In this document: positions 6,067-64,000 of the stretch, piece after piece | Position numbering within the stretch: the stretch's first letter is position 1 | How the letters are laid out: every line of letters begins with the position of its first letter | From: Mimachlamys varia | Taxonomy: Eukaryota > Mollusca > Bivalvia > Pectinida > Pectinidae | NCBI GenBank assembly: GCA_947623455.1 | Contig: OX392545.1 | Location: 21,798,001 to 21,862,000 of the forward strand | DNA: 64,000 nucleotides | Direction: 5' to 3' | Notes under the pieces: model-generated | Told to the model about the DNA's origin: nothing | Database searches by the model: none | The model's input: the letters and a program-made list of their open reading frames with translations, nothing else | Position numbers and translations under genes: made by a program

Positions 6067-6571
6067 AACTCCGATAAATAAGCGTTGTTGATAAGGGCAA
6101 AATCTGCAAATAGTAGGGGGTAGACAAAATTACTTTGACGCCACTTACCAAATGTGTTAAAAAATCATCAAACTTTTGTCAGTTTCACTAAGTCTTATTC
6201 CCTGTCAGATAGACCCTGGTTCCCCATTAAAATCGGTTAGCCTTGTGACCTCGAGACGGTGTGGCCAGCGTGCGTCGTTTGCAAGAGTTCATTTCGATCA
6301 AATAGATAGATAGAACTGCCAAATACATAGTGAAAGTTAAATGTGCAATTTAACCACAGCCTTCGAATTGTTAAGATTGTCAGAAGGACGGCTTTTAATT
6401 TTGCCCCATTGCCGTTTATACTATAAACATGTTTTGATTGGTCAAACCATGATTACGTTAATGAAAGATATGACATGACTCATTAGTGAAAAAATATCAC
6501 CGTACAGGTGGAAATAATGAGCTTCAATATTTCAATGGTACAAGTATTTTTTTAAATTCATTTCGTTTCAG

Positions 6572-7272
6572 GCGGCGGACAGGTCCAGTTGTGGCAATTC
6601 CTCTTGGAACTTCTAACAGATGGGGCGAATGACTGTTGTATCAGGTGGGAGGGACCTAACGGCGAGTTCCGTATGACTGATCCTGAGGAAGTTGCCAAAC
6701 GATGGGGAAGCCGCAAAAACAAGCCTAACATGAATTACGACAAGTTGAGCAGAGCTTTACGATATTACTACGACAAAATGATACTAACTAAGGTTCAAGG
6801 AAAACGGTATACATATAAATTCAATTTCAAAATGATACTTGAATCAAATAAAACAGTATCTGGCTCGAATCCCTACTCCCTCGATTTGAACTCTCGTGTT
6901 GGAATGGAAAGTCGCTTTCTCCAACACCTGCAATTCCGTGACACGGTATCATCTTTACTACCGGTTGACCGATACGTTCAGTGTCGACTAGATAGTAGGA
7001 TGCCTAACCCGATGTCTAGTTTCGATCGCGGACCTCTTCCATTCCGGTCGTTGGAACAGGATCGCTCACCTCCCCGCGAAATGTTTGGTTTTCCATCGCC
7101 AGGATCCTCCTACGGACGCGTCTCGCCTAGTTACTCGGTGACCTCAAGCTCTCTGCATCAGGACCCGCCCACTTACGTCACGGCACAATATCAAAGCGAG
7201 TACCTTCCTCAATGTGACTGCTACCCGGCCTGTCAGTCAGGACATAGTTCAATGCCTTACCCGCATTACTAA
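6572..7272 (+). CDS. ETS-domain transcription factor of the ERG/FLI/FEV group, last exon
   Basis: This exon encodes a nuclear sequence-specific DNA-binding domain that would recognise GGAA-core sites. Acceptor TTTCGTTTCAG precedes 6572, and the frame enters in phase 1. The ETS domain occupies the first 85 or so residues: LWQFLLELL (helix 1), [21 protein letters not shown] (helix 2 region), and [12 protein letters not shown] (recognition helix 3, with both guanine-contacting Arg residues), ending in [26 protein letters not shown] and GKRY-YKF point to the ERG/FLI1/FEV subfamily. Departures from the usual vertebrate sequence include [17 protein letters not shown]. The remaining 145 or so residues are Ser-, Pro- and Tyr-rich and end in PYPHY, as in other ERG-group C-termini. 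The open frame only appears to start at 6589; TTG there encodes Leu inside the domain. Stop is TAA. Which of ERG, FLI1 or FEV it is orthologous to cannot be settled from one exon. Confidence 0.95.
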
Positions 7273-25301: not shown

Positions 25302-25352
25302 GTATTTCCATTTTACCCATGGCCTTACTGGCCTTCCTGGTGAGGATTGAAT
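25302..25352 (+). CDS. Three-finger/IgGFc-binding-type gene, exon 2 (signal peptide)
   Basis: The 51-nt exon has acceptor TTGTTCTTTAG and donor GAAT|GTAAGT and is phase 1 at both ends. It encodes ISILPMALLAFLVRIE: a hydrophobic core followed by charged residues. The trailing T joins AT of exon 3 to give Tyr, so the junction reads RIEYMTALRCLSC. The core and the position just before the first cysteine module fit a secretory signal peptide. An earlier internal GTGAGG could act as a donor but gives phase 0 and an immediate stop with exon 3. The intron that follows is about 9.8 kb and mostly a tandem array. Confidence 0.55.
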
Positions 25353-25439
25353 GTAAGTGTATTTTTTATTTACCTTTTTATAACCTTTTACGGTATCCGT
25401 GTCCATAATAAACTATAATTCAAAATATTTATGTTTATT

Positions 25440-25575
25440 GATGTCGTAGGTACTTCCCGCTTGACACTCAGCGTTATGGGAGTGGAACGGCTACTTCACC
25501 TGTTGTCAATATAATGTGACTGATTGGTGTTCTGCTTGGGACTACCAGTAGTATACGTCAGTGTGGAAGCACTTC
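25440..25575 (+). repeat. Dispersed repeat family 1 fragment in intron 2
   Basis: CCCGCTTGACACTCAGCG, ATGGGAGTGGAACG, CACCTGTTGTCAATATAATG, GTTCTGCTTGGGACTACC and GTGTGGAAGCACTT follow the same order as at 3950-4113. Confidence 0.75.
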
Positions 25576-26236
25576 CAATCTCCAATAAGAAAGACAATAA
25601 AAGATAAAATTCCTTATTTAGGCAACTTCACATTCATGCATTGGGACAGTACAGTTAGTGTAGGTATAATTTGTCTTGTTAAAAAAAGACAATATCTGAA
25701 TGACATACAAATGTGAATCGGATTTTTCAATTTCGCCCTATGGTATATATTACAGTTTTAATGACTATATGAGGTCTTTACGAGGCTTTTAAAAGTATCT
25801 TTCAAGAAGATTATCTTGAAACATTAAATAATTTGATAAATACAATTTATGAAATAGAAATTAATATTATTTTTTTTATATATATAATTTTGTTACTGTT
25901 TGGATATTTTCCTATATGATCACAACATAGATAAAGGAATGACTGCTTGACCTAAGCCTATTTTGATAACCTACTTAATAGTCAGAAAATACACATATGT
26001 CATATCAAAATGGATTTATTTTAGCTACTACTGAGCGATACTATCCTTTCTTTACTTTTTTTTTTTTTAATGTACAATATTTTATAATTATAACGAATAT
26101 CTATTCTAACGCGATATAAATCGAATACTTACAAAAGTGACAATGCCGCTAATTAAAGGAGAGGAAATATACACTGTTTGTGACTTTATACATAGCTACA
26201 TAGATTAGATACATAGATTATATACATATAAATGTT

Positions 26237-29200
26237 TATATTGTATATCAAACCACACAGATATGACCGCCCTACGATGTTTGTGACTTTATATATTGTA
26301 TATCAAACCACACAGATATGACCGCCCTACAGTGTTTGTGACTTTATATATTGTATATTGTATATCAAACCACACAGATATGACCGCCCTACGGTGTTTG
26401 TGACTTTATATATTGTAAATTGTATATCAAACCACACAGATATGACCGCCCTACAGTGTTTGTGACTTTATATATTGTATATTGTATATCAAACCACACA
26501 GATATGACCGCCCTACGATGTTTGTGACTTTATATATTGTATATTGTATATCAAACCACACAGATATGACCGCCCTACGGTGTTTGTGACTTTATATATT
26601 GTATATTGTATATCAAACCACACAGATATGACCGCCCTACGATGTTTGTGACTTTATATATTGTATATTGTATACCAAACCACACAGATATGACCGCCCT
26701 ACAGTGTTTGTGACTTTATATATTGTATATTGTATATCAAACCACACAGATATGACCGCCCTACGATGTTTGTGACTTTATATATTGTATATTGTATACC
26801 AAACCACACAGATATGACCGCCCTACGGTGTTTGTGACTTTATATATTGTATATCAACCCACACAGATATGACCGCCCTACGATGTTTGTGACTTTACAT
26901 ATTGTATATTGTATATCAAACCACACAGATATGACCGCCCTACGATGTTTGTGACTTTACATATTGTATATTGTATATCAAACCACACAGATATGACCGC
27001 CCTACGATGTTTGTGACTTTACATATTGTATATTGTATATCAAACCACACAGATATGACCGTCCTACGGTGTTTGTGACTTTATATATTGTATATTGTAT
27101 ATCAAACCACACAGATAGGACCGCCCTACGGTGTTTGTGACTTTACATATTGTATATTGTATATCAAACCACACAGATATGACCGCCCTACGGTGTTTGT
27201 GACTTTATATATTGTATATTGTATATCAAACCACACAGATATGACCGCCCTACGGTGTTTGTGACTTTATATATTGTATATTAAACCACACAGATATGAC
27301 CGCCCTACGATGTTTGTGACTTTATATATTGTATATCAAACCACACAGATATGACCGCCCTACGGTGTTTGTGACTTTATATATTGTATATTGTATATCA
27401 AACCACACAGATATGACCGCCCTACGATGTTTGTGACTTTATATATTGTATATTGTATATCAAACCACACAGGTATGACCGCCCTACGGTGTTTGTGACT
27501 TTATATATTGTATATTGTATATCAAACCACACAGATATGACCGCCCTACGATGTTTGTGACTTAATATATTGTATATTGTATTCCAAACCACACAGATAT
27601 GACCGCCCTACGGTGTTTGTGACTTTATATATTGTATATCAAACCACACAGATATGACCGCCCTACGATGTTTGTGACTTTATATATTATATATCAAACC
27701 ACAAAGATATGACCGCCCTACGATGTTTGTGACTTTATATATTGTATATTGTATATCAAACCACACAGATATGACCGCCCTACGATGTTTGTGACTTTAT
27801 ATATTGTATATTGTATATCAAACCACACTGATATGACCGCCCTACGGTGTGTGTGACTTTATATATTGTATATCAAACCACACAGATATGACCGCCCTAC
27901 GGTGTTTGTGACTTTATATATTGTATATTGTATATCAAACCACACAGATATGACCGCCCTACGGTGTTTGTGACTTTATATATTGTATATTGTATATCAA
28001 ACCACACAGATATGACCGCCCTACGATGTTTGTGACTTTATATATTGTATATTGTATATCAAACCACACAGATATGACCGCCCTACGATGTTTGTGACTT
28101 TATATATTGTATATTGTATATCAAACCACACAGATATGACCGCCCTACGATGTTTGTGACTTTATATATTATATATCAAACCACAAAGATACGACCGCCC
28201 TACGATGTTTGTGACTTTATATATTGTATATTGTAAATCAAACCACACAGATATGACCGCCCTACGGTGTTTGTGACTTTATATATTGTATATTGAATAT
28301 CAAACCACACAGGTATGACCGCCCTACGATGTTTGTGACTTTATATATTGTATATTGTATATCAAACCACACAGATATGACCGCCCTACGGTGTTTGTGA
28401 CTTTATATATTGTATATTGTATATCAAACCACACAGATATGACCGCCCTACGATGTTTGTGACTTTATATATTGTATATTGTATATCAAACCACACAGAT
28501 ATGACCGCCCTACGGTGTTTGTGACTTTATATATTGTATATTGAATATCAAACCACACAGATATGACCGCCCTACGGTGTTTGTGACTTTATATATTGTA
28601 TATTGTATATCAAACCACACAGATATGACCGCCCTACGGTGTTTGTGACTTTATATATTGTATATTGTATATCAAACCACACAGATATGACCGCCCTACG
28701 ATGTTTGTGACTTTATATATTGTATATTGTATATCAAACCACACAGGTATGACCGCCCTACGGTGTTTGTGACTTTATATATTGTATATTGTATATCAAA
28801 CCACACAGATATGACCGCCCTACGGTGTTTGTGACTTTATATATTGTATATTGTATATCAAACCACACAGGTATGACCGCCCTACGATGTTTGTGACTTT
28901 ATATATTGTATATTGTATATCAAACCACACAGATATGACCGCCCTACGGTGTTTGTGATTTTATATATTGTATATCAAACCACACAGATATGACCGCCCT
29001 ACGGTGTTTGTGACTTTATATATTGTATATCAAACCACACAGATATGACCGCCCTACGGTGTTTGTGACTTTATATATTGTATATTGTATATCAAACCAC
29101 ACAGATATGACCGCCCTACGGTGTTTGTGACTTTATATATTGTATATTGAATATCAAACCACACAGATATGACCGCCCTACGGTGTTTGTGACTTTATAT

Positions 29201-32200
29201 ATTGTATATTGAATATCAAACCACACAGGTATGACCGCCCTACGGTGTCTGTGACTTTATATATTGTATATTGTATACCAAACCACACAGATATGACCGC
29301 CCTACGGTGTTTGTGACTTTATATATTGTATATTGTATATCAAACCACACAGATATGACCGCCCTACGGTGTTTGTGACTTTATATATTGTATATTGTAT
29401 ATCAAACCACACAGATATGACCGCCCTACGGTGTTTGTGACTTTATATATTGTATATTGTATATCAAACCACACAGATATGACCGCCCTACGGTGTTTGT
29501 GACTTTATATATTGTATATCAAACCACAAAGATATGACCGCCCTACGATGTTTGTGACTTTATATATTATATATTGTAAATCAAACCACAAAGATACGAC
29601 CGCCCTACGGTGTTTGTGACTTTATATATTGTATATTGTATACCAAACCACACAGATATGACCGCCCTACAGTGTTTGTGACTTTATATATTGTATATTG
29701 TATATCAAACCACACAGATATGACCGCCCTACGGTGTTTGTGACTTTATATATTGTATATTGTATATCAAACCACACAGGTATGACCGCCCTACGGTGTC
29801 TGTGACTTTATATATTGTATATTGTATATCAAAACACACAGATATGACCGCCCTTCGGTGTTTGTGACTTTATATATTGTATATTGTATATCAAACCACA
29901 CAGATATGACCGCCCTACGATGTTTGTGACTTTATATATTGTATATTGTATATCAAACCACACAGGTATGACCGCCCTACGGTGTTTGTGACTTTATATA
30001 TTGTATATTGAATATCAAACCACACAGATATGACCGCCCTACGATGTTTGTGACTTTATATATTGTATATTGTATATCAAACCACACAGATATGACCGCC
30101 ATACGGTGTTTGTGACTTTATATATTGTATATTGTATATCAAACCACACAGATATGACCGCCCTACGATGTTTGTGACTTTATATATTGTATATTGTATA
30201 TCAAACCACACAGGTATGACCGCCCTACGATGTTTGTGACTTTATATATTGTATATTGTATATCAAACCACACAGATATGACCGCCCTACGATGTTTGTG
30301 ACTTTATATATTGTATATTGTATATCAAACCACACAGGTATGACCGCCCTACGATGTTTGTGACTTTATATATTGTATATTGTATATCAAACCACACAGA
30401 TATGACCGCCCTACGGTGTTTGTGACTTTATATATTGTATATCAAACCACACAGATATGACCGCCCTACGGTGTTTGTGACTTTATATATTGTATATCAA
30501 ACCACACCGATATGACCGCCCTACGATGTTTGTGACTTTATATATTGTATATTGTATATCAAACCACACAGATATGACCGCCCTACGGTGTTTGTGACTT
30601 TATATATTGTATATCAAACCACACCGATATGACCGCCCTACGATGTTTGTGACTTTATATATTGTATATTGTATATCAAACCACACAGATATGACCGCCC
30701 TACGATGTTTGTGACTTTATATATTGTATATTGTATATCAAACCACACCGATATGACCGCCCTACGGTGTTTGTGACTTTATATATTGTATATTGTATAT
30801 CAAACCACACAGATATGACCGCCCTACGATGTTTGTGACTTTATATATTGTATATTGTATATCAAACCACACAGATATGACCGCCCTACGATGTTTGTGA
30901 CTTTATATATTGTATATTGTATATCAAACCACACAGATAGGACCGCCCTACGGTGTTTGTGACTTTATATATTGTATATTGTATATCAAACCACACCGAT
31001 ATGACCGCCCTACGATGTTTGTGACTTTATATATTGTATATTGTATATCAAACCACACAGATATGACCGCCCTACGATGTTTGTGACTTTATATATTGTA
31101 TATTGTATATCAAACCACAAAGATATGACCGCCCTACGGTGTTTGTGACTTTATATATTGTATATCAAACCACACAGGTATGACCGCCCTACGATGTTTG
31201 TGACTTTATATATTATATATCAAACCACAAAGATACGACCGCCCTACGATGTTTGTGACTTTATATATTGTATATTGTATATCAAACCACACAGATATGA
31301 CCGCCCTACGGTGTTTGTGACTTTATATATTGTATATTGTATATCAAACCACACAGATATGACCGCCCTACGATGTTTGTGACTTTATATATTGTATATT
31401 GTATATCAAACCACACAGATATGACCGCCCTACGATGGTTGTGACTTTATATATTGTATATTGTATATCAAACCACACAGATAGGACCGCCCTACGGTGT
31501 TTGTGACTTTATATATTGTATATTGTATATCAAACCACACAGATATGACCGCCCTACGATGTTTGTGACTTTATATATTGTATATTGTATATCAAACCAC
31601 ACAGATATGACCGCCCAACGGTGTTTGTGACTTTATATATTGTATATTGTATATCAAACCACACAGGTATGACCGCCCTACGGTGTTTGTGACTTTATAT
31701 ATTGTATATTGAATATCAAACCACACAGGTATGACCGCCCTACGATGTTTGTGACTTTATATATTGTATATTGTATACCAAACCACACAGATATGACCGC
31801 CCTACGATGGTTGTGACTTTATATATTGTATATTGTATATCAAACCACACAGGTATGACCGCCCTACGGTGTTTGTGACTTTATATATTGTATATTGTAT
31901 ACCAAACCACACAGATATGACCGCCCTACGATGGTTGTGACTTTATATATTGTATATTGTATATCAAACCACACAGATATGACCGCCCTACGGTGTTTGT
32001 GACTTTATATATTGTATATTGTATATCAAACCACACAGATATGACCGCCCTATGGTGTTTGTGACTTTACATATTGTATATCAAACCACACAGATATGAC
32101 CGCCCTACGGTGTTTGTGACTTTACATATTGTATATTGTATATCAAACCACACAGATATGACCGCCCTACGGTGTTTGTGACTTTACATATTGTATATCA

Positions 32201-35159
32201 AACCACACAGATATGACCGCCCTACGATGTTTGTGACTTTATATATTGTATATCAAACTACACAGATATGACCGCCCTACGGTGTTTGTGACTTTATATA
32301 TTGTATATTGAATATCAAACCACACAGGTATGACCGCCCTACGGTGTTTGTGACTTTATATATTGTATATCAAACCACACAGATATGACCGCCCTACGAT
32401 GTTTGTGACTTTATATATTGTATATCAAACTACACAGATATGACCGCCCTACGATGTTTGTGACTTTATATATTGTATATTGTATATCAAACCACACAGA
32501 TATGACCGCCCTACGGTGTTTGTGACTTTATATATTGTATATTGTATATCAAACCACACAGTTATGACCGCCCTACGATGTTTGTGACTTTATATATTGT
32601 ATATTGTATACCAAACCACACAGATATGACCGCCCTACGGTGTTTGTGACTTTATATATTGTATATTGTATATCAAACCACACAGATATGACTGCCCTAC
32701 GATGTTTGTGACTTTATATATTGTATATTGTATATCAAACCACACAGATATGACCGCCCTACGATGTTTGTGACTTTATATATTGTATATTGTATACCAA
32801 ACCACACAGATATGACCGCCCTACGGTGTTTGTGACTTTATATATTGTATATTGTATATCAAACCACACAGATATGACCGCCCTACGATGTTTGTGACTT
32901 TATATATTGTATATTGTATATCAAACCACACAGATATGACCGCCCTACGATGTTTGTGACTTTATATATTGTATATTGTATATCAAACCACAAAGATACG
33001 ACCGCCCTACGATGTTTGTGACTTTATATATTGTATATTGTATATCAAACCACACAGATATGGCCGCCCTACGGTGTTTGTGACTTTATATATTGTATAT
33101 TGTATATCAAACCACACAGATATGACCGCCCTACAGTGTTTGTGACTTTATATATTGTATATTGTATATCAAACCACACAGATATGACCGCCCTACGGTG
33201 TTTCTGACTTTATATATTGTATATTGTATATCAAACCACACAGATATGACCGCTCTACGGTGTTTGTGACTTTATATATTGTATATTGTATATCAAACCA
33301 CACAGATATTACCGCCCTACGATGTTTGTGACTTTATATATTATATATCAAACCACAAAGATATGACCGCCCTACGGTGTTTGTGACTTTATATATTGTA
33401 TATTGTATATCAAACCACACAGATATGACCGCCCTACGATGTTTGTGACTTTATATATTGTATATTGTATATCAAACCACACAGATATGACCGCCCTACG
33501 ATGTTTGTGACTTTATATATTGTATATTGTATATCAAACCACACAGATATGACCGCCCTACGGTGTTTGTGACTTTATATATTGTATATCAAACCACACA
33601 GATATGACCGCCCTACGATGTTTGTGACTTTATATATTGTATATCAAACCACACAGATATGACCGCCCTACGATGTTTGTGACTTTATATATTGTATATT
33701 GTATATTAAACCACACAGATATGACCGCCCTACGATGTTTGTGACTTTATATATTGTATATTGTATATCAAACCACACAGGTATGACCGCCCTACGGTGT
33801 TTGTGACTTTATATATTGTATATCAAACCACACAGATATGACCGCCCTACGATGTTTGTGACTTTATATATTGTATATCAAACCACACAGATATGACCGC
33901 CCTACGATGTTTGTGACTTTATATATTGTATATTGTATATTAAACCACACAGGTATGACCGCCCTACGATGTTTGTGACTTTATATATTGTATATCAAAC
34001 CACACAGATATGACCGCCCTACGATGTTTGTGACTTTATATATTGTATATTGTATATCAAACCACACAGATATGACCGCCCTACGATGTTTGTGACTTTA
34101 TATATTGTATATCAAACCACACAGATATGACCGCCCTACGATGTTTGTGACTTTATATATTGTATATCAAACCACACAGATATGACCGCCCTACGATGTT
34201 TGTGACTTTATATATTGTATATCAAACCACACAGATATGACCGCCCTACGATGTTTGTGACTTTATATATTGTATATTGTATATCAAACCACACAGATAT
34301 GACCGCCCTACGATGTTTGTGACTTTATATATTGTATATTGTATATCAAACCACACAGATATGACCGTCCTACGATGTTTGTGACTTTATATATTGTATA
34401 TTGTATATCAAACCACACAGATATGACCGCCCTACGATGTTTGTGACTTTATATATTGTATATCAAACCACACAGATATGACCGCCCTACGATGTTTGTG
34501 ACTTTATATATTGTATATCAAACCACACAGATATGACCGCCCTACGGTGTTTGTGACTTTATATATTGTATATTGTATATCAAACCACACAGATATGACC
34601 GCCCTACGATGTTTGTGACTTTATATATTGTATATTGTATATCAAACCACACAGATATGACCGCCCTACGGTGTTTGTGACTTTATATATTGTATATCAA
34701 ACCACACAGATATGACCGCCCTACGATGTTTGTGACTTTATATATTGTATATCAAACCACACAGATATGACCGCCCTACGATGTTTGTGACTTTATATAT
34801 TGTATATTGTATATTAAACCACACAGGTATGACCGCCCTACGGTGTTTGTGACTTTATATATTGTATATTGTATATCAAACCACACAGATATGACCGCCC
34901 TACGATGTTTGTGACTTTATATATTGTATATTGGATATCAAACCACACAGATATGACCGCCCTACGGTGTTTGTGACTTTATATATTGTATATTGTATAT
35001 CAAACCACACAGATATGACCGCCCTACGATGTTTGTGACTTTATATATTGTATATTGTATATCAAACCACACAGATATGACCGTCCTACGATGTTTGTGA
35101 CTTTATATATTGTATATTGTATATCAAACCACACAGATATGACCGCCCTACGGTGTTTG
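26237..35159 (+). repeat. 62/55-bp tandem array of a duplicated intron-exon boundary, about 150 units
   Basis: The long unit is 62 bp: 39 bp of intron-like sequence (TGACTTTATATATTG, TATATTGTATATC, AAACCACACAG), then 23 bp identical to the first 23 nt of exon 3, which read ATATGACCGCCCTACGGTG and TTTG. A 55-bp form lacks one TTGTATA block. Common variants are CGG/CGA in the exon-like part (both Arg), CAG in its place (Gln), and AGATATG changed to AGGTATG. The last unit runs without a break into exon 3 at 35137; every other unit has TGACTT where the exon has AGCTGT. The count is estimated from length. A lone TGTTTGTGACTTTATA at about 26175 precedes the array. The array fills about 91% of intron 2. 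Its length in the assembly may be wrong. Confidence 0.95.
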
Positions 35160-35222
35160 AGCTGTAATGGTTTCACACAGCCTCATCAGTGTTCCAACAT
35201 CGAGGTCTGTCCTGAAGGAGAC
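35137..35222 (+). CDS. Three-finger/IgGFc-binding-type gene, exon 3 (module 1, first part)
   Basis: The acceptor is CACACAG at the end of the final array unit; the donor is GAC|GTAAGT. It enters in phase 1 and leaves in phase 0. It encodes MTALRCLSCNGFTQPHQC, then SNIEVCPEGD: the N-terminal CxxC and two more cysteines of a Ly6/uPAR-type (three-finger) module. The acceptor has a poor pyrimidine tract. The only competing AG just upstream, at 35160-35161, would cut off the first Cys and give phase 2, unlike the other exons. The first 23 nt are the segment amplified in the array. Confidence 0.85.
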
Positions 35223-36973: not shown

Positions 36974-37045
36974 GTATGTGTAACTGAGTCTTTCCGGAGT
37001 GAGAATGGGGAAACCTTGTTTCAGGTTGGATGTTCGTCTTCAGAT
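36974..37045 (+). CDS. Three-finger/IgGFc-binding-type gene, exon 4 (module 1, middle)
   Basis: Acceptor TCCTGTGTCCAG, donor GAT|GTAAGT, phase 0 at both ends, 24 codons. It encodes VCVTESFRSENGETLF and then QVGCSSSD. Its two cysteines align with those of exon 7 in module 2 (VCYVEE then TGC). Length and phase match exon 7 (69 nt). Confidence 0.85.
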
Positions 37046-37975: not shown

Positions 37976-38111
37976 AGATGTAGCTTGACCAGCCGTGGTA
38001 AACGTTTTACAGATATCATTCGGACAGATAGTTTCGGAACACCTCCGCGTCCTCTATGTACTGAGTGTTGCCACAGTGACCTTTGTAATGTCGCGGGCTG
38101 TCGAATGGGTG
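37976..38111 (+). CDS. Three-finger/IgGFc-binding-type gene, exon 5 (module 1, last part)
   Basis: Acceptor CTCATGTTGTAG, donor GGTG|GTAAGT; enters in phase 0 and leaves in phase 1. It encodes RCSLTSRGKRFTDI, an extended loop, then PLCTECCHSDLCNVAGC. The CC-x4-CN ending is the signature C-terminus of Ly6/uPAR/three-finger modules. With exons 3 and 4 it completes a 12-cysteine module spaced C-x2-C-x8-C-x5-C-x5-C. Confidence 0.88.
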
Positions 38112-38455: not shown

Positions 38456-38550
38456 GATTTCAAAAACAAAGAGGCCCGGTATGTTTAGATTGTCAGCAAT
38501 CACGTGACCCTCGTGAGTGTGACGCTATAGCTGTCTGTCATCAAGGCGAG
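38456..38550 (+). CDS. Three-finger/IgGFc-binding-type gene, exon 6 (linker and module 2, first part)
   Basis: Acceptor ACTTTATATAG, donor GAG|GTAAGG; phase 1 in, phase 0 out. The split Gly codon joins exon 5. It encodes a short linker (GFQKQRGP), then VCLDCQQSRDPREC and DAIAVCHQGE. The cysteine spacing C-x2-C-x8-C-x5-C equals that of exon 3. Confidence 0.88.
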
Positions 38551-38853: not shown

Positions 38854-38922
38854 GTGTGTTACGTTGAGGAAATGATAAAGTTCGGCGATATCTTTTACAG
38901 AACAGGCTGCTTACCGAATACC
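38854..38922 (+). CDS. Three-finger/IgGFc-binding-type gene, exon 7 (module 2, middle)
   Basis: Acceptor ATTTCATTCTAG, donor ACC|GTGAGT, phase 0 at both ends, 23 codons. It encodes VCYVEEMIKFGDIFYRTGC and then LPNT, matching exon 4 in phase, length and cysteine position. Confidence 0.88.
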
Positions 38923-39772: not shown

Positions 39773-39881
39773 GATCAACGATGTTTTCCTCCCACATTTA
39801 ACCCTGTGGAAGTGGGAAAGCGGTCAGACCAACATGGAACCTGCTTTTCGTGCTGCCCTTACGACCTCTGTAACACCAAAT
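39773..39881 (+). CDS. Three-finger/IgGFc-binding-type gene, exon 8 (module 2, last part)
   Basis: Acceptor TTTGTTTTAG; donor AAAT|GTAAAA, slightly weak; phase 0 in, phase 1 out. It encodes DQRCFPPTFNPVEV, then GTCFSCCPYDLCNTK. The split last codon joins exon 9 to give Cys, completing a second 12-cysteine module. The CC-x4-CN motif matches exon 5. Confidence 0.9.
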
Positions 39882-40477
39882 GTAAAATCAGCATTGTTTT
39901 AAATCATATACATTTTAGGCTAACCATAAATATCACAATTCAATTAATAATAAAAAAATCATTTGATAACGTTATCAAATATTCCAATGAAAACTGTTTA
40001 ACCCATATATAACTTGAATACGTTTAATACAGACCTATGAAAAAGGTAGTCCTCTGTCAATTTTGAGTTACCTGACGTTGAAACATGCTATGATTAATAA
40101 AATGGATTAGTTTGCATCAACTGTATGTTGATGAACAAGAAAGGTAAATATTATATTGGTTGATATAATTTTGACATGCATTAATATGTAACACACATCG
40201 TATTACATTCATAGTCAACATGGTGAGCTATATTCACCATTCAATAAGTAGATACGCCAAGGTATGTTACACACCGATGAATGTCAAATAATAAGTATTG
40301 GTGTGTTACAAATGACCAGGTCACCCTTCCGCAGCGTTCCTGCTAACAACGTTACCGTCGACAACACAGTCACCGAAAACCCCCGGTAAATACGAAACTT
40401 TAAATGCATTTGTTAAATAGCTAACTTCGAAAGGGGTTCCATATAGATAGATTGGGAATATTTCTCAATCTTATTAT

Positions 40478-42318: not shown

Positions 42319-43562
42319 GTTTCAAAGGGGAGAGCTTTTTCTTGATGTTCATGCGAAATCATGAGTATAGCTACAGCACACAAAAACTAAGTGTTCATGT
42401 AGCATTCATGGCTCCTTATGCGCATATAGAGGTGATCACACGACATAACACAACATCACAAAATGTTTCTGGTCCAGCAACTTACATTGATATCGACGCA
42501 GACTTGACCATACGAGAAAACGGGAAGACAGATAAAGGAGTCGTTCTAACATCCGACACACCGATGTCTGCAACAGTGTTTAACAGTAATACTCGTGGAT
42601 CAACGGACGGATACCTTGCCTTACCTACAGAAGATCTTGGAGACTCTTATATTGTGGGAACATTCAGGCCTAATAACAACAATTATGATATATTTGGAAC
42701 TGTTTTTGCTGTAGGTGCACCATACGACAACACAGAGATCAATATCACTTTCAGTACATCAGGTGTCACTGTTCCTGGCCAGTATCACAGAGAGGGAGAC
42801 TCAATCACCGTTGTACTGGACAAACTCGACACATTCTACGTTGAGACAAAATCAACCAATAAGGACTTGACAGGTACGCGTATCATTAGCAATAAACCAG
42901 TAGCAGTCGTGTCCGGTAATGTCTGTTCATACAGAAATGGATGTAACCATCTTGTGGAGTATCTACCTCCGGTGTCTAAATGGGGGACCAGGTTCATGGT
43001 ACCACCTATAAAGAGAAGTACCAGTGGTATAATTAGGATTGTCTCGTCGGAAAATAACACACATGTCGTTGTCACTTCAAAAACATCGAACCAAACGTAT
43101 GTTATCTCAATTTTTGTGGATATAGAAATAGATGCCACTCCGACGTACGAAATTTCTAGTGATAGACCTGTTCTTGTACTACTGTTTTTTAATAAAGAAA
43201 AAGTTGGAATGACAATTATACCGTCAACAAACCAGTTTTCCAATGAACCCGTATTTGTGTCGCCTCCTAGACTTTCCTATTACCAGACCATTCCGTTCGA
43301 TAACTATATCGTTGTCAGTATCCGTAAAAGCGAGCAGGCTGGTCTACAACTTCGTTCGGCCGATGGTTCAGAACTTCCACGAGTTGGATCAGTGACTTTT
43401 GCTAGTGTTGAAGGTCAAATATATAGTTTTATATCTGTCCACTGCAACAACAACCAGACGTGTTCCGTTCAGCATACCAACCACGACGTGGAATTCGGTG
43501 TTATCGTCTACGGTTATACCACCTATGAAACGTATGCATATCCTGCAAATCTCAGTTTGTAA
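42319..43562 (+). CDS. Three-finger/IgGFc-binding-type gene, exon 9 (IgGFc-binding-protein N-terminal-type domain)
   Basis: Acceptor TTTTTCATTTGACAG, phase 1; 413 residues to TAA at 43560-43562. The whole exon is one domain of the type found at the N-terminus of vertebrate IgGFc-binding protein and in many invertebrate proteins. It starts FKGESFFLMFMRN. Internal features are PTEDLGDSYIVGTF, GTRIISNKPVAVVSGNVC, VEYLPPVSKWGTRF and ISSDRPVLVLLF, and it ends VEFGVIVYGYTTYETYAYP. Several N-x-S/T sites fit a secreted protein. No transmembrane segment, GPI signal or mucin/VWD repeats follow, so the protein is far shorter than vertebrate FCGBP. Function unknown; a mucosal or immune-type extracellular role is only an inference. 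The apparent ATG at 42291 lies in the intron. Confidence 0.95.
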
Positions 43563-44880: not shown

Positions 44881-45020
44881 CTTTTTCTGATTTGACCAAT
44901 CAGAACGCTGCTTATAAACGACATTTTGGGAAATCAAAAGTTACCACAGTAGATTTTGCTACTAAATGTAATGAAAAGAATATCTAACAGTATCTTAAGT
45001 AATACCAAATATATTTCATT

Positions 45021-45341
45021 CGTGTGGCTAATATTTTGATATTTTTCACTCGTGCTGCGCACTTGTGAAATATATCAAATATCAGCCCCACTCGTGAAAT
45101 ATATTTGGTTTTACTGAAGATACTGTTCGTGTGGCTAATATTTTGATATTTTTCACTCGTGCTGCGCACTTGTGAAATATATCAAATATCAGCCCCACTC
45201 GTGAAATATATTTGGTTTTACTGAAGATACTGTTCGTGTGGCTAATATTTTGATATTTTTCACTCGTGCTGCGCACTTGTGAAATATATCAAATACCAGC
45301 CCCACTCGTGAAATATATTTGGTTTTACTGAAGATACTGTT
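45021..45341. repeat. Three tandem copies of a 107-bp unit
   Basis: Copies at 45021-45127, 45128-45234 and 45235-45341 are almost identical; one TACC/TATC difference is visible. Each begins CGTGTGGCTAATATTTTG and holds TTTTTCACTCGTGCTGCGC, ACTTGTGAAATATATC and GGTTTTACTGAAGATACTGT. Frames on the minus strand are by-products. The near-identity shows a recent triplication. Confidence 0.95.
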
Positions 45342-48898: not shown

Positions 48899-50612
48899 TT
48901 CCCGCGACACCGATGGATCAACCTCTTGAGCACGACATCCATGACTTTGTATCCATTTTCAGCGACACCCATGACTGCGAACCAAATTACCGTGACACCT
49001 ATAGATGTGTACCCCTTTATCGCGACACCCATGATTGCGTATCCCTTTACCGTCACACCTTTGACTGTGTACACCGGGCCCGTTGTCATGACGCCCATGA
49101 ATTTGTACCCCTTTACCGCGACACCTAAGAATGTGTACCACTTTACCGCGACAGCCATGACTGTGTACCCATTTACTGCGACAGCCAAGACTGTGTACAC
49201 CTAGAACGCGACATCCAAGACTGTGTACCCCTTTACCGCGACACTAATGAATGCTTACCTCTTTACCGCGACACCCATGACTGCGTACCACACTACCGTG
49301 ACACCCATAGATTTGTACCCCTTAACCGCGACACCCATGATTCTGTCCCACTTTACCACGACACCCATGGTTGTTTCCCACTTTATCGTCACTCCTTTGA
49401 CTGTGTACACCGTTGCCACGACATCCATAAAATTGTAACTCTTTATCAATGATTGTGAAGCCATTAAACACGACACCCATGACTGTGTCCAACTTTACCA
49501 CGACACCCATGACTGTGTCCCACTTTACCACGACACCCATGACTATGTCCCACTTAAACACGACACCCATGACTGTGTCCAACTTTACCACGACACCCAT
49601 GACTGTGTACCCCTGTACCACGACACCCGTGATTGTGTCCCACTTTACCACGACACCCATGACTGTGTCCTACTTAAACACGACACCCATGACTGTGTAC
49701 CCCTTTACCGCGAAAACCAAGATTGTACCCGTTTATCGCGACATCCAAGACAGTGTACCCCTTTACCGCGACACCCATGACTGTGTACCCCTTACCACGA
49801 CACCAATGGCTGTGTACCACTTTACCGCGACATCCAATATTGTGTACATGTACCACTTTACCGCGACACCCATGATTGTATTCCACTTTATCGCGACACC
49901 CAAGATTGTATACCACTTTACCGCGACACCCATAATTGTGAAGCCCTTAAACACGACACCAATGACTGTGTTTCCCTTTACCGCAACACCCATGACTGTG
50001 TCCTACTTAAACACGACACCCATGACTGTGTACCCCTTTACCGCGATATCCATGACTGTGTTCCCCTTAACCGCGACACCCATGATTGTGTCCCACTTTA
50101 CCACAACACCCATGACTGTGTCCCACTTTACCACAACACCCATGACTGTGTCCCACTTTACCACAACACCAATGAATGTGTACACCTTTACCGCAACACC
50201 CATATATTTGTTCCCTTTTACCACGACACCCAAGACTGTGTACCACTTTACCACGACATCCATGATTGTGTACACCTTTACCACAACACCCAAGACTGTG
50301 TACCCCTTTACCACGACACCCAAGACTGTGTACCCCTTTACCACGACATCCATGATTGTGTACCCCTTTACCACAACACCCAAGACTGTGTACCCCTTTA
50401 CCACGACACCCAAGACTGTGTACCCCTTTACCACGACATCCATGATTGTGTACCCCTTTACCACAACACCCAAGACTGTGTACCCCTTTACCACGACATC
50501 CATGATTGTGTACCCCTTTACCACAACACCCATGACTGTGTACCACTTTACCGCGACATCCAAAATTGTATACCACTCTACCACGACACCCAAAATTGTA
50601 TACAACTTACGA
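48899..50612. repeat. 30-bp minisatellite, about 57 copies
   Basis: The unit is ACCACGACACCCATGACTGT followed by GTACCCCTTT, with CGCGAC/CACGAC/CACAAC and CCCATGA/CCCAAGA variants. The period is 10 codons, so frames stay open for long distances on both strands: 395 codons on plus (TTTPMTVYPF-like), and 200 and 169 on minus. Indels in the first 550 bp and after 49700 shift those frames, and there is no start context, signal or splice support. I treat it as non-coding. Confidence 0.9.
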
Positions 50613-55290: not shown

Positions 55291-58200
55291 TGGACCACTG
55301 TCAGTATAAAGTGTCCGGGTGGAGATGTTAGACCACTGTCAGTATAATGTGTCCGGGTGGAGATGTTAGACCACTGTCAGTATAATGTGTCCGGTTGGAG
55401 ATGTTAGACCACTGTCAGTATAATGTGTCCGGGTGGAGATGTTAGACCACTGTCAGTATAATGTGTCCGGGTGGAGATGTTAGACCACTGTCAGTATAAT
55501 GTGTCCGGGTAGAGATGTTAGACCACTGTCAGTATAATGTGTCCGGGTGGAGATGTTAGACCACTGTCAGTATAATGTGTCTGGGTGGAGATGTTAGACC
55601 ACTGTCAGTATAATGTGTCCGGGTGGAGATGTTAGACCACTGTCAGTATAATGTGTCCGGTTAGAGATGTTAGACCACTGTCAGTAATATGTGTCCGGGT
55701 GGAGATGTTAGACCACTGTCAGTATAATGTGTCCGGGTGGAGATGTTAGACCACTGTCAGTATAATGTGTCCGGGTAGAGATGTTAGACCATTGTCAGTA
55801 TAATGTGTCCGGGTGGAGATGTTAGACCGCTGTCAGTATTATTTGTCCGGGTAGAGATGTTAGAACACTGTCAGTATAATGTGTCCGGGTGGAGATGTAA
55901 GACCTCTGTCAGTATAATCTGTCCGGTGGAGATGTTAGACCACTGTCAGTATAATGTGTCCGGATGGAGATGTTAGATCACTGTCAGTATAATGTGTCCG
56001 GGTGGAGATGTTAGACCGCTGTCAGTATAATGTGTCCGGGTGGAGATGTTAGACCACTGTCAGTATAATGTGTCCGGGTGGAGATGTTAGACCACTGTCA
56101 GTATAATGTGTCCGGGTGGAGATGTTAGACCGCTGTCAGTATAATGTGTCCGGGTGGAGATGTTAGACCACTGTCAGTATTATTTGTTCGGTTAGAGATG
56201 TTAGACCACTGTCAGTATAATGTGTCCGGCTGAGATGTTAGACCACTGTCAGTATAATGTGTTCGGGTGGAGATGTTAGACCACTGCCAGTATAATGTGT
56301 CCGGGTGGAGATGTTAAACCACTGTCAGTATAATGTGTCCGGGTGGAGATGTTAGACCACTGTCAGTATAATATGTCCGGCTGAGATGTTAGACCACTGT
56401 CAGTATAATGTGTCCGGGTGAGATGTTAGACCACTGTCAGTATAATGTGTCCGGGTAGAAATTTTAGACCACTCCCAGTATAATGTGTCCGGTTGGGGAT
56501 GTTAGACAACTGTCAGTATAATGTGTCAGGGTGGAGATGTTAGACCACTGTCAGTATAATGTGTCCGGGTGGAGATGTTAGACCACTGTCAGTATAATGT
56601 GTCCGGGTGGAGATGTTAGACCACTGTCAGTATAATGTGTCCGGGTGGAGATGTTAGACCACTGTCAGTATAATGTGTCTTGGTAGAGATGTTTGACCAC
56701 TGTCAGTATAATGTATCCGGGTGGAGATGTTAGACCACTGTCAGTATAATGTGTCCGGGTAGAGATGTTAGACCACTGTCAGTATAATGTGTCCGGGTAG
56801 AGATGTTAGACCACTGTCAGTATAATGTGTCCGGGTTGAGATGTTAGACCACTGTCAGGATAATGTGCCCGGGTGGAGATGTTAGACCACTGTCAGTATA
56901 ATATGTCCGGGTAGAGATGTTAGACCACTGTCAGTATAATGTGTCCGGGTGGAGAAGTTAGACCACTGTCAGTATAATGTGTCCAGGTAGAGATGTTAGA
57001 CCACTGTCAGTATTATGTGTCCGGTTGGAGATGTTAGACCACTATCAGTATAATGTGTCCGGGTGGAGAGGTTAGACCACTGTCAGTATAATGTGTCCGG
57101 GTGGAGATGTTAGACCACTGACAGTATAATGTGTCCAGGTAGAGATGGTAGACCACTGTCAGTATAATGTGTCCGGGTGGAGATGTAAGACCTCTGTCAG
57201 TATAATCTGTCCGGTGGAGATGTTAGACCACTGTCAGTATAATGTGTCCGGATGGAGATGTTAGATCACTGTCAGTATAATGTGTCCGGGTGGAGATGTT
57301 AGACCGCTGTCAGTATAATGTGTCCGGGTGGAGATGTTAGACCACTGTCAGTATAATGTGTCCGGGTGGAGATGTTAGACCACTGTCAGTATAATGTGTC
57401 CGGGTGGAGATGTTAGACCGCTGTCAGTATAATGTGTCCGGGTGGAGATGTTAGACCACTGTCAGTAAAATGTGTCCAGGTGGAGATGTTAGACCACTGT
57501 CAGTATAATGTGTCCGGGTGGAGATGTTAGACCACTGTCAGTATTATTTGTTCGGTTAGAGATGTTAGACCACTGTCAGTATAATGTGTCCGGCTGAGAT
57601 GTTAGACCACTGTCAGTATAATGTGTTCGGGTGGAGATGTTAGACCACTGCCAGTATAATGTGTCCGGGTGGAGATGTTAAACCACTCTCAGTATAATGT
57701 GTCCGGGTGGAGATGTTAGACCACTGTCAGTATAATATGTCCGGCTGAGATGTTAGACCACTGTCAGTATAATGTGTCCGGGTGAGATGTTAGACCACTG
57801 TCAGTATAATGTGTCCGGGTAGAAATTTTAGACCACTCCCAGTATAATGTGTCCGGTTGGGGATGTTAGACAACTGTCAGTATAATGTGTCAGGGTGGAG
57901 ATGTTAGACCACTGTCAGTATAATGTGTCCGGGTGGAGATGTTAGACCACTGTCAGTATAATGTGTCCGGGTGGAGATGTTAGACCACTGTCAGTATAAT
58001 GTGTCCGGGTGGAGATGTTAGACCACTGTCAGTATAATGTGTCTTGGTAGAGATGTTTGACCACTGTCAGTATAATGTGTCCGGGTGGAGATGTTAGACC
58101 ACTGTCAGTATAATATGTCCGGGTAGAGATGTTAGACCACTGTCAGTATAATGTGTCCGGGTAGAGATGTTAGACCACTGTCAGTATAATGTGTCCGGGT

Positions 58201-61200
58201 GGAGATGTTAGACCACTGTCAGTATAATGTGTCCGGGTTGAGATGTTAGACCACTGTCAGTATAATGTGCCCGGGTGGAGATGTTAGACCACTGTCAGTA
58301 TAATATGTCCGGGTAGAGATGTTAGACCACTGTCAGTATAATGTGTCCGGGTGAAGAGGTTAGACCACTGTCAGTATAATGTGTCCGGGTGGAGATGTTA
58401 GACCACTGTCAGTATAATGTGTCTGGGTGAAGATGTTAGACCACTGTCAGTATAATGTGTCCGGGTGGAGATGTTAGACCACTGTCAGTATAATGTGTCT
58501 GGGTGAAGATGTTAGACCACTGTCAGTATAATGTGTCCGGGTATTGATGTTAGACCACTATCAGTATTATGTGTCCGGGTGGAGATGTTAGACCACTGTC
58601 AGTATAATATGTCCGGGTGGAGATGTTAGACCACTGTCAGTATAATGTGTCCGGGTGGAGATGTTTGACCACTGTCAGTATAATGTGTCTGGGTGGAGAT
58701 GTTAGACAACTGTCAGTATAATGTTTCCGGGTTGAGACGTTAGACCGCTGTCAGTATAATGTGTCCGGGTGGAGATGTTAGACCACTGTCAGTATAATGT
58801 GTCCGGATGGAGATGTTAGACCACTGTCAGTATAATGTGTCCGGGTGGAGATGTTAGACCACTGTCAGTATGTGTCCGGATGGGGATGTTAGACCACTGT
58901 CAGTATAATGTGTCTTGGTAGAGATGTTAGACCACTGTCAGTATAATGAGTCCAGCTGAGATGTTAGACCACTGTCAGTATAATGTGTCCGGGTGGAGAT
59001 GTTAGACCGCTGTCAGTATAATGTGTCCGGGTGGAGATGTTAGACCACTGTCAGTATAATGTGTCTTGGTAGAGATGTTTGACCACTGTCAGTATAATGT
59101 GTCCGGGTGGAGATGTTAGACCACTGTCAGTATAATATGTCCGGGTAGAGATGTTAGACCACTGACAGTATAATGTGTCCGGGTAGAGAAGTTAGACCAC
59201 TGTCAGTATAATGTGTCCGGGTGAAGATGTTAGACCACTGTCAGTATAATGTGTCCGGGTGGAGATGTTAGACCACTGTCAGTATAATGTGCCCGGGTGG
59301 AGATGTTAGACCACTGTCAGTATAATATGTCCGGGTAGAGATGTTAGACCACTGTCAGTATAATGTGTCCGGGTGGAGAAGTTAGACCACTGTCAGTATA
59401 ATGTGTCCAGGTGGAGATGTTAGACCACTGTCAGTATTATGTGTCCGGGTGGAGATGTTAGACCATTGTCAGTATAATGAGTCCGGGTAGAGATGTTAGA
59501 CCACTGTCAGTATTATGTGTCCGGGTAGAGATGTTAGAACACTGTCAGTATAATGTGTCCGGGTGGAGATGTTAGACCACTATCAGTATAATGTGTCCGG
59601 GTGGAGAGGTAAGACCACTGTCAGTATAATGTGTCCGGGTGGAGATGTTAGACCACTGTCAGTATAATGTGTCTGGGTGGAGATGTTAGACCACTGTCAG
59701 TATAATGTGTCCGGGTATTGATGTTAGAACACTGTCAGTATTATGTGTCCGGGTGGAGATGTTAGACCACTGTCAGTATAATGTGTCCGGGTGGAGATGT
59801 TAGACCACTGTCAGTATTATGTGTCCGGGTGGAGATGTTAGACCACTGTCAGTATAATGTGTCTGGGTGGAGATGTTAGACCACTGTCAGTATAATGTGT
59901 CCGGGTGGAGATGTTTGACCACTGTCAGTATAATGTGTCCGGGTGGAGATGTTAGACCACTGTCAGTATAATATGTCCGGGTAGAGATGTTAGACCACTG
60001 TCAGTATAATGTGTCCGGGTAGAGAAGTTAGACCACTCCCAGTATAATGTGTCCAGTTGGGGATGTTAGACAACTGTCAGTATAATGTGTCAGGGTGGAG
60101 ATGTTAGACCACTGTCAGTATAATGTGTCCGGGTGAGATGTTAGACCACTGTCAGTATAATGTGTCCGGGTAGAAATTTTAGACCACTCCCAGTATAATG
60201 TGTCCGGTTGGGGATGTTAGACAACTGTCAGTATAATGTGTCAGGGTGGAGATGTTAGACCACTGTCAGTATAATGTGTCCGGGTGGAGATGTTAGACCA
60301 CTGTCAGTATAATGTGTCCGGGTGGAGATGTTAGACCACTGTCAGTATAATGTGTCCGGGTGGAGATGTTAGACCACTGTCAGTATAATGTGTCTTGGTA
60401 GAGATGTTTGACCACTGTCAGTATAATGTGTCCGGGTGGAGATGTTAGACCACTGTCAGTATAATATGTCCGGGTGGAGATGTTAGACCACTGTCAGTAT
60501 AATGTGTCCGGGTAGAGATGTTAGACCACTGTCAGTATAATGTGTCCGGGTGGAGATGTTAGACCACTGTCAGTATAATGTGTCCGGGTTGAGATGTTAG
60601 ACCACTGTCAGGATAATGTGCCCGGGTGGAGATGTTAGACCACTGTCAGTATAATATGTCCGGTTAGAGATGTTAGACCACTGTCAGTATAATGTGTCCG
60701 GGTGGAGAAGTTAGACCACTGTCAGTATAATGTGTCCAGGTAGAGATGTTAGACCACTGTCAATATTATGTGTCCGGTTGGAGATGTTAGACCACTATCA
60801 GTATAATGTGTCCGGGTGGAGAGGTTAGACCACTGTCAGTATAATGTGTCCGGGTGGAGATGTTAGACCACTGACAGTATAATGTGTCCAGGTAGAGATG
60901 GTAGACCACTGTCAGTATAATGTGTCCGGGTGGAGATGTAAGACCTCTGTCAGTATAATCTGTCCGGTGGAGATGTTAGACCACTGTCAGTATAATGTGT
61001 CCGGATGGAGATGTTAGATCACTGTCAGTATAATGTGTCCAGGTGGAGATGTTAGACCGCTGTCAGTATAATGTGTCCGGGTGGAGATGTTAGACCGCTG
61101 TCAGTATAATGTGTCCGGGTGGAGATGTTAGACCACTGTCAGTAAAATGTGTCCAGGTGGAGATGTTAGACCACTGTCAGTATAATGTGTCCGGGTGGAG

Positions 61201-64000
61201 ATGTTAGACCACTGTCAGTATTATTTGTCCGGTTAGAGATGTTAGACCACTGTCAGTATAATGTGTCCGGGTGGAGAAGTTAGACCACTGTCAGTATAAT
61301 GTGTCCAGGTAGAGATGTTAGACCACTGTCAATATTATGTGTCCGGTTGGAGATGTTAGACCACTATCAGTATAATGTGTCCGGGTGGAGAGGTTAGACC
61401 ACTGTCAGTATAATGTGTCCGGGTGGAGATGTTAGACCACTGACAGTATAATGTGTCCAGGTAGAGATGGTAGACCACTGTCAGTATAATGTGTCCGGGT
61501 GGAGATGTAAGACCTCTGTCAGTATAATCTGTCCGGTGGAGATGTTAGACCACTGTCAGTATAATGTGTCCGGATGGAGATGTTAGATCACTGTCAGTAT
61601 AATGTGTCCGGGTGGAGATGTTAGACCACTGTCAGTATAATGTGTCCGGGTGGAGATGTTAGACCGCTGTCAGTATAATGTGTCCGGGTGGAGATGTTAG
61701 ACCACTGTCAGTAAAATGTGTCCAGGTGGAGATGTTAGACCACTGTCAGTATAATGTGTCCGGGTGGAGATGTTAGACCACTGTCAGTATTATTTGTTCG
61801 GTTAGAGATGTTAGACCACTGTCAGTATAATGTGTCCGGCTGAGATGTTAGACCACTGTCAGTATAATGTGTTCGGGTGGAGATGTTAGACCACTGCCAG
61901 TATAATGTGTCCGGGTGGAGATGTTAAACCACTGTCAGTATAATGTGTCCGGGTGGAGATGTTAGACCACTGTCAGTATAATATGTCCGGCTGAGATGTT
62001 AGACCACTGTCAGTATAATGTGTCCGGGTGAGATGTTAGACCACTGTCAGTATAATGTGTCCGGGTAGAAATTTTAGACCACTCCCAGTATAATGTGTCC
62101 GGTTGGGGATGTTAGACAACTGTCAGTATAATGTGTCAGGGTGGAGATGTTAGACCACTGTCAGTATAATGTGTCCGGGTGGAGATGTTAGACCACTGTC
62201 AGTATAATGTGTCCGGGTGGAGATGTTAGACCACTGTCAGTATAATGTGTCCGGGTGGAGATGTTAGACCACTGTCAGTATAATGTGTCTTGGTAGAGAT
62301 GTTTGACCACTGTCAGTATAATGTGTCCGGGTGGAGATGTTAGACCACTGTCAGTATAATATGTCCGGGTAGAGATGTTAGACCACTGTCAGTATAATGT
62401 GTCCGGGTAGAGATGTTAGACCACTGTCAGTATAATGTGTCCGGGTGGAGATGTTAGACCACTGTCAGTATAATGTGTCCGGGTTGAGATGTTAGACCAC
62501 TGTCAGTATAATGTGCCCGGGTGGAGATGTTAGACCACTGTCAGTATAATATGTCCGGGTAGAGATGTTAGACCACTGTCAGTATAATGTGTCCGGGTGG
62601 AGAGGTTAGACCACTGTCAGTATAATGTGTCCGGGTGGAGATGTTAGACCACTGTCAGTATAATGTGTCTGGGTGAAGATGTTAGACCACTGTCAGTATA
62701 ATGTGTCCGGGTGGAGATGTTAGACCACTGTCAGTATAATGTGTCTGGGTGAAGATGTTAGACCACTGTCAGTATAATGTGTCCGGGTATTGATGTTAGA
62801 CCACTATCAGTATTATGTGTCCGGGTGGAGATGTTAGACCACTGTCAGTATAATGTGTCCGGGTGGAGATGTTAGACCACTGTCAGTATAATGTGTCCGG
62901 GTGGAGATGTTTGACCACTGTCAGTATAATGTGTCTGGGTGGAGATGTTAGACAACTGTCAGTATAATGTTTCCGGGTTGAGACGTTAGACCGCTGTCAG
63001 TATAATGTGTCCGGGTGGAGATGTTAGACCACTGTCAGTATAATGTGTCCGGATGGAGATGTTAGACCACTGTCAGTATAATGTGTCCGGGTGGAGATGT
63101 TAGACCACTGTCAGTATGTGTCCGGATGGGGATGTTAGACCACTGTCAGTATAATGTGTCTTGGTAGAGATGTTAGACCACTGTCAGTATAATGAGTCCA
63201 GCTGAGATGTTAGACCACTGTCAGTATAATGTGTCCGGGTGGAGATGTTAGACCGCTGTCAGTATAATTTGTCCGGGTGGAGATGTTAGACCACTGTCAG
63301 TATAATGTGTCTTGGTAGAGATGTTTGACCACTGTCAGTATAATGTGTCTGGGTGGAGATGTTAGACCACTGTCAGTATAATATGTCCGGGTATTGATGT
63401 TAGACCACTGTCAGTATTATGTGTCCGGTTGGAGATGTTAGACCACTGTCAGTATAATGTGTCCGGGTGGAGATGTTTGACCACTGTCAGTATAATGTGT
63501 CCGGGTGGAGATGTTAGACCACTGTCAGTATAATATGTCCGGGTAGAGATGTTAGACCACTGTCAGTATAATGTGTCCGGGTAGAGAAGTTAGACCACTG
63601 TCAGTATAATGTGTCCGGGTGGAGATGTTAGACCACTGTCAGTATAATGTGTCCGGGTTGAGATGTTAGACCACTGTCAGTATAATGTGTCCGGGTGGAG
63701 ATGTTAGACCACTGTCAGTATAATGTGCCCGGGTGGAGAAGTTAGACCGCTGTCAGTATAATGTGTCCAGGTGGAGATGTTAGACCACTGTCAGTATAAT
63801 GTGTCCGGGTGGAGATGTTAGACCACTGTCAGTATAATGAGTCCGGGTAGAGATGTTAGACCACCGTCAGTATAATGTGTCCGGGTAGAGATGTTAGAAC
63901 ACTGTCAGTATAATGTGTCCGGGTGGAGATGTTAGACCACTATCAGTATAATGTGTCCGGGTGGAGAGGTAAGACCACTGTCAGTATAATGTGTCCGGGT
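55291..64000. repeat. 38-bp satellite array, about 229 copies, continues past the window
   Basis: The unit is GACCACTGTCAGTATAATGT then GTCCGGGTGGAGATGTTA. Most copies differ by one or two substitutions (GGTAGAG, GGTTGAG, ATATGTCC) or small deletions. Variant blocks recur in the same order at distances of about 1.0, 1.3 and 4.2 kb, showing higher-order duplication. The segment TGTCAGTATAATGTGTCCGG resembles TGTCAGTAAAATATGACCGG in dispersed family 1 (4035-4060). No open frame of note. Confidence 0.97.

Follow-up and report, generated by a model that had tools for sequence, protein, structure and literature searches.

148 tandem copies of an exon's own splice acceptor, with the start of the exon, in an intron of a predicted scallop gene

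How is the start of an exon chosen when its splice acceptor, together with the first bases of the exon itself, is repeated well over a hundred times in tandem directly upstream, and how does such an arrangement come about? Both questions are raised by 64,000 nucleotides (nt) of DNA from the scallop Mimachlamys varia (GenBank assembly GCA_947623455.1, contig OX392545.1, positions 21,798,001 to 21,862,000 of the forward strand). This whole stretch is referred to below as the window, and all positions are counted within it. Here, intron 2 of a gene for a predicted IgGFc-binding-domain protein ends in a minisatellite whose unit consists of the end of that intron and the beginning of exon 3. We consider it probable that the array represents neutral minisatellite growth at a splice acceptor, tolerated since exon definition favours the last copy.

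The gene that contains the array looks real. Its model comprises ten coding exons, joined by matching phases and splice sites, which encode 643 amino acids and are separated by nine introns of 303 to 9784 nt (table 1). The predicted protein begins with a signal peptide, which is followed by two putative three-finger domains of the Ly6/uPAR-like type, a linker rich in Thr/Pro and finally an IgGFc-binding domain. Domain scores and the full protein search were obtained with a 621-residue model that leaves out linker exon 9; on this model PF17517 scores 158.8 bits against a cut-off of 25.6, and PF00021 (Ly6/uPAR) scores 23.2 bits, below its cut-off of 24.8. PF00021 is part of the precomputed annotation of the relatives P0003, P0005, P0012 and P0038, and the cysteine pattern is largely conserved. 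The 11 best of the 37 protein matches are from scallops (Mizuhopecten yessoensis, Pecten maximus and Ylistrum balloti); the matches below the twelfth, of at most 128 bits, share the IgGFc-binding domain and include bacterial proteins and one from a sea urchin. A second search with the first 208 residues of the model returned one match, from M. yessoensis, and the same 208 residues align with the M. yessoensis protein P0038 at 73% without gaps. The M. yessoensis relatives look partial: P0001 starts at about the equivalent of exon 6, P0038 ends early and P0008 starts late.

It is the alignment with P0038, made at the protein level, that identifies the copy from which exon 3 is read. The two proteins match at 69% over 275 of 275 residues with zero gaps, and the alignment spans the exon 2/3 junction, where P0038 reads MGAYTIFVTFLVFLVIIQYITALRCLSCNGF and the window protein reads MGISILPMALLAFLVRIEYMTALRCLSCNGF. 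The junction lies at a tyrosine (Y) common to both proteins and coincides with the AG of the last copy, while the pattern [AS][IL]RCLxC is found at the same place in all six further relatives that were aligned. Because P0038 aligns gap-free across the junction, the last copy is, by protein homology, the coding acceptor of exon 3, which agrees with an earlier first-pass annotation of this DNA in which the final unit was proposed to be the true exon boundary. Another coding acceptor for exon 3 was considered and ruled out, since the protein is collinear with P0038 through the junction. The exon part of the unit is common to the relatives and hence represents ancestral coding sequence, so that the gene gave rise to the repeat; an exon start derived from the repeat is thereby ruled out as well.

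Anchored on the acceptor, the tandem array contains 148 cores between 26253 and 35155/35159, close to the 150 copies first estimated. The last core (AG at 35135–35136) is the only one that runs on into exon 3, and the other 147 are termed decoys here. Of the 147 core-to-core intervals, 113 measure 62 base pairs (bp) and 34 measure 55 bp, and Tandem Repeats Finder (TRF) reports a 62-bp array at 26292–35159 with 146.8 copies, 93% matches and a score of 14929. Each unit joins the end of intron 2, from TGAC to CACACAG (39 bp in the 62-bp form), to the 23-bp start of exon 3, ATATGACCGCCCTACGRTGTTTG. This is the composition that the first-pass annotation had described, and it means that the unit carries the host gene's own exon 3 acceptor, as in variable number tandem repeats (VNTRs) of the ABCA7 type discussed below. 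The start of the array, placed at 26237 in that annotation, has to be moved to approximately 26175, where a longer first copy of 103 bp begins.

Among 147 aligned units the mean pairwise identity is 96.8%, and 60 distinct types are interspersed along the array. A frequent variant, already recognised as synonymous in the coding frame, exchanges CGA and CGG (76 of the 148 cores have A, 72 have G); autocorrelation exceeds 2 standard deviations (sd) at lags 2, 6 and 11 for the CGG state and at lag 1 for the short unit, both being weak signals. The proposal that every copy offers the same acceptor stands for the AG, which is retained in 142 of the 147 decoys, but not for the first exon base, which differs from that of the real site in 18 (17 G, one T). 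In the five decoys with a broken AG, which span 27829–30997, the change is always at position −2 (four C, one T) and never at −1. All 147 decoys have TGA directly after eight codons, as expected from the earlier observation that they are in frame and then stop at once, and 104 of them give exactly the reading YMTALRCL followed by the stop.

The ends of the unit point to the way in which the array was born. The hexamer TGTTTG occurs in intron 2 at 26175, where it is followed by TGACTTTATA, and again in exon 3 at 35154, where it is followed by AGCTGT; at the unit junctions, with a few point variants, exon sequence lies to the left of TGTTTG and intron sequence to its right. As read from the letters of the array, this pattern is the footprint of tandem duplication at a 6-bp microhomology. 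The positions of the two hexamers account for where the unit ends, including its exon edge and its stop codon. We infer the order of the subsequent steps as follows. Tandem duplication between the intron 2 and exon 3 hexamers would have doubled the acceptor and the first 23 nt of the exon; within the array, the 55-bp unit would then have arisen through loss of 48 bp and the 62-bp unit through duplication of 7 bp, with expansion to 148 copies by slippage or unequal exchange. Taking 48 bp from the 103-bp first copy leaves the 55-bp unit, which the 62-bp unit exceeds by 7 bp. Most likely, the 5′-most copy is the original acceptor context, and the acceptor now used is a derived copy that kept the exon.

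Other arrays are present in the window. A second long minisatellite, with a 38-bp unit and about 230 copies, extends from 55293 to 64000, the end of the window, and a stretch of intron 2 at about 25496–25560 resembles its motif by eye. A 30-bp array (CACGACACCCATGACTGTGTACCCCTTTAC) at 48931–50592 is open in several frames, one of which has 401 codons and gave zero matches to Pfam. The presence of three arrays longer than 1.6 kb in one window makes chance placement of such an array at an exon edge more plausible.

How, then, would the last acceptor be chosen? Scores were calculated with acceptor and donor matrices that are generic approximations, and this applies to all splice-site scores given here. 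The real acceptor scores 1.9. Outside the array, 23% of the AGs examined attain this value, and among the 147 decoys 82% equal or exceed it; strength therefore does not single out the last copy, whereas position can. The exon 3 acceptor has 9 pyrimidines in 16 positions, the same as the acceptors of exons 2, 6 and 7, and the exon 6 acceptor scores lower. There is no AG in the 60 nt that precede the real site, and the consensus unit has no other AG between the acceptor and TGAC, which we take to be branch-point-like. The mRNA would still be built from the last copy, as only this copy has a good donor 86 nt away and hence would be recognised by exon definition; from the nearest decoys, extended exons reaching the exon 3 donor would measure 148, 210, 272, 334, 396 and 458 nt. 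A small fraction of transcripts probably make use of decoys that adjoin the real site; such transcripts would stop at codon 27 and then be subject to nonsense-mediated decay. Exon definition, leakage through decoys, decay and the absence of a regulatory role are all matters that we infer. In a long-intron setting the splice sites closest to each other across the exon tend to be chosen, according to the available part of a study of alternative splice sites (PMC9225289). The predicted RNA fold of the last two units with exon 3 is unremarkable (z −1.32; a fold as good or better was obtained for 21 of 200 shuffles), and an Rfam scan of the window gave zero matches at gathering score.

The decoys are neither visibly preserved nor visibly removed. 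The AG pair has undergone five changes among the 147 aligned units (all at −2), compared with an average of 1.7 changes per site if the CGA/CGG site is excluded, and its conservation is not above average. Variant types in the exon part of the decoys comprise 13 nonsynonymous, five synonymous and one stop, near the neutral ratio of 59:27:6. Nor is the exon part less variable than the rest, with 0.79 versus 0.51 variant types per site (19 versus 43 sites; the exon part is counted as 19 sites, and the other four exon bases, TTTG, are included in the intron part). The six decoys nearest to the real site, which follow each other in even 62-nt steps, all keep AG. Two candidate signs of function were rejected: the unbroken TGA, as 6 of 60 three-base windows are equally invariant, and the synonymous CGA/CGG change, as 13 of the 19 decoy exon variant types are nonsynonymous.

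An accident of minisatellite growth that caught the exon edge, which the first-pass annotation had offered as its alternative, fits best with the TGTTTG microhomology and with decoys on which selection was not detected. Several points weigh against neutral growth with exon-defined use of the last copy. The available text of PMC9225289 reports that the upstream preference is 'significantly reduced' at exon-defined 3′ sites, not plainly reversed, and that upstream acceptors are preferred over all events; in the experiments with duplicated acceptors by Reed and Maniatis that it cites, the upstream copy was the favoured one. That the last copy is used is deduced from protein homology only. The TGA that is intact in 147 of 147 decoys leaves room for selection, though it is not striking, and homogenisation of the array blurs every selection test.

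The first-pass annotation had raised delayed splicing, lowered expression and dependence of output on array length as possible effects of the array. The same anatomy could thus be read as a brake, in which poison acceptors capture splicing factors and the exon 2 donor in a length-dependent manner and yield transcripts that end after MTALRCL and are decayed, such that more copies give less protein. This would suit the retention of AG in 142 and of the in-frame TGA in all 147 decoys, the 82% of decoys that equal or surpass the real site on the generic matrix, and the AG-free stretches both within the unit and in front of the real site; greater length of the ABCA7 VNTR goes with lower expression (PMC5954066, available text). 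However, selection on AG or on frame was undetected, only the last few copies fall within usual exon length of the real donor (148 to 458 nt), and in ABCA7 retention of one unit is constant whatever the array length (same source). A length-dependent brake is thus possible but unlikely, and what speaks for a regulatory role is anatomy alone. The proposal of a heritable, length-tunable splicing rheostat, in which 142 in-frame poison acceptors (17 of them acceptor–donor hybrids) compete with the last site and set the output of an immune-type secreted protein, with length alleles grading expression, appears distinctly unlikely.

The hybrid copies raise a further alternative. In 17 of the 147 decoys the sequence is CAG/GTATGA (the slash marks the splice point), while the real site is without AG/GT. 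With a donor score of 8.61, these decoys rank among the highest 0.8% of GTs outside the array. Eight real donors were scored, all except that of exon 9, and five of them fall below this value; 84 acceptor–donor pairs lie 40–320 nt apart. The AG/GT decoys resemble the dual-specific sites of UBC or ratchet points, and could end pseudo-exons or permit stepwise intron removal. Dual-specific or recursive splicing would accordingly consist of stepwise removal of the long intron, or of cassette pseudo-exons between a plain decoy and an AG/GT unit. The number, score and spacing of the hybrids favour this reading, and the available text of PMC10809524 describes arrays of dual-specific sites that are spliced in UBC. 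Against it, the pyrimidine tract is weak (43% of the AGs outside the array reach its 9 of 16), A occupies the first exon base in both the first copy and the real site, which makes G the derived state, and the scatter of G along the array stays within 2 sd of shuffles at lags 1–12. UBC-type arrays have AG/GT in every unit, compared with 17 of 147 decoys here. We regard recursive or dual-specific splicing as very improbable. An assembly artefact that greatly shortens or lengthens the true array is scarcely credible: near-identical tandem units are a weak point of assembly, but the existence of the array is supported by the 60 interspersed types among 147 aligned units and by the difference of its first and last copies from the rest, even if its exact length may be off.

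The coordinates of the array and of the gene are collected in table 1. Elsewhere in the window, an ETS DNA-binding domain (PF00178, 119.2 bits) at 6556–7272 on the + strand belongs to a separate upstream gene, and three 107-bp copies with 99% matches, probably recent, are found at 45019–45341.

Table 1. Positions of the acceptor array and of the coding exons of its host gene in the window.
Feature	Positions	Strand	Remarks
First, ancestral-type copy, 103 bp	26175..26277	+	Starts TGTTTG; acceptor AG at 26259-26260; holds 48 bp absent from 55-bp units
Array, 147 decoys and real site	26253..35159	+	148 cores, intron 3′ end and 23 nt of exon 3
Last copy	35129..35159	+	Acceptor fitting the protein, and shared exon part; TGTTTG microhomology 35154-35159
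Exon 1, coding part ATGG with start codon	24516..24519	+	Donor GTGAGT; encoded protein begins with MG, like P0038 of M. yessoensis
Exon 2 (signal peptide)	25302..25352	+	Donor GTAAGT at 25353
Intron 2, 9784 nt	25353..35136	+	About 8.96 kb of the intron is array
Exon 3, 86 nt (signal peptide end and first three-finger domain start)	35137..35222	+	Donor GTAAGT at 35223
Exon 4	36974..37045	+	Gene model and P0038 alignment
Exon 5 (CTECCHSDLCN, first three-finger domain end)	37976..38111	+	Gene model, alignments with relatives
Exon 6 (second three-finger domain)	38456..38550	+	Gene model and P0038 alignment
Exon 7	38854..38922	+	Gene model and P0038 alignment
Exon 8	39773..39881	+	Gene model and P0038 alignment
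Exon 9 (Thr/Pro-rich linker)	40320..40385	+	Inclusion makes the P0038 alignment gap-free over 275 residues
Exon 10 with stop codon (IgGFc-binding domain, PF17517)	42319..43562	+	Gene model and domain match

Earlier work on acceptor choice includes built duplicates (Reed and Maniatis, cited in PMC9225289) and natural alternative-site pairs (PMC9225289), as described in the available text of the latter. The scallop array constitutes a natural test bed, with 148 near-identical acceptors before one exon, 147 of them decoys with a common frame and an immediate stop. As unit variants mark many copies, junction counts would separate first-come from nearest-to-donor choice directly. The locus also provides a clear case of a minisatellite that was born at a microhomology and took in the edge of an exon, and it warns that gene prediction and RNA mapping call for care in such genomes.

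The comparisons with known systems that follow refer to the available parts of the sources cited. The first-pass annotation had remarked that no acceptor was known to have been amplified to this extent. This agrees with the literature matches listed, none of which describes the amplification of one acceptor, together with the start of its exon, into an array; the remark needs qualification, as the mirror case of a donor is published (ABCA7, PMC5954066) and dual-specific arrays are known (UBC and VCX3A, PMC10809524). Intronic minisatellites are the subject of PMC12783039 and PMC4039745, whose available text does not describe an amplified acceptor. Ratchet points of recursive splicing (PMC8605326 and others) have an acceptor that adjoins a donor in a long intron, as in 17 of the scallop units; unlike the scallop sites, they are presented in the available text without mention of an origin in an array. 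Internal tandem repeats in human segmental duplications (PMC2812944) likewise involve minisatellite expansion over an exon–intron boundary that is able to alter splicing, but they are described as forming novel introns in recent paralogues, and the available text does not describe a single-acceptor array.

In human UBC and VCX3A each tandem unit holds a splice site, as it does in the scallop, and the damage done by growth of the repeats can, in the authors' view, be mitigated by splicing (PMC10809524). There, however, each site is both donor and acceptor and lies within coding repeats, whereas the scallop array is intronic and has AG/GT in 17 of its 147 decoys. In intron 18 of human ABCA7 a VNTR with a 25-bp unit and about 12 to 427 copies amplifies a splice donor; retention of one unit is 2 ± 1% and unaffected by array length, while exon 19 skipping rises and expression falls with VNTR length (PMC5954066). 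As in ABCA7, the scallop unit carries the exon's own splice site and one copy is the normal site; use of the ABCA7 cryptic donor one unit further leads to a premature stop, just as the scallop decoys lead to TGA. The two differ in that the ABCA7 unit holds a donor, in an array described as intronic, while the scallop unit combines an acceptor with 23 nt of in-frame exon and an immediate stop, and in that an effect of length, on exon 19 skipping and expression, is known for ABCA7 and hypothetical for the scallop array. Minisatellites that carry a splice site of the host gene are thus already on record: ABCA7 has one with a donor, and UBC and VCX3A represent the kind in a different form.

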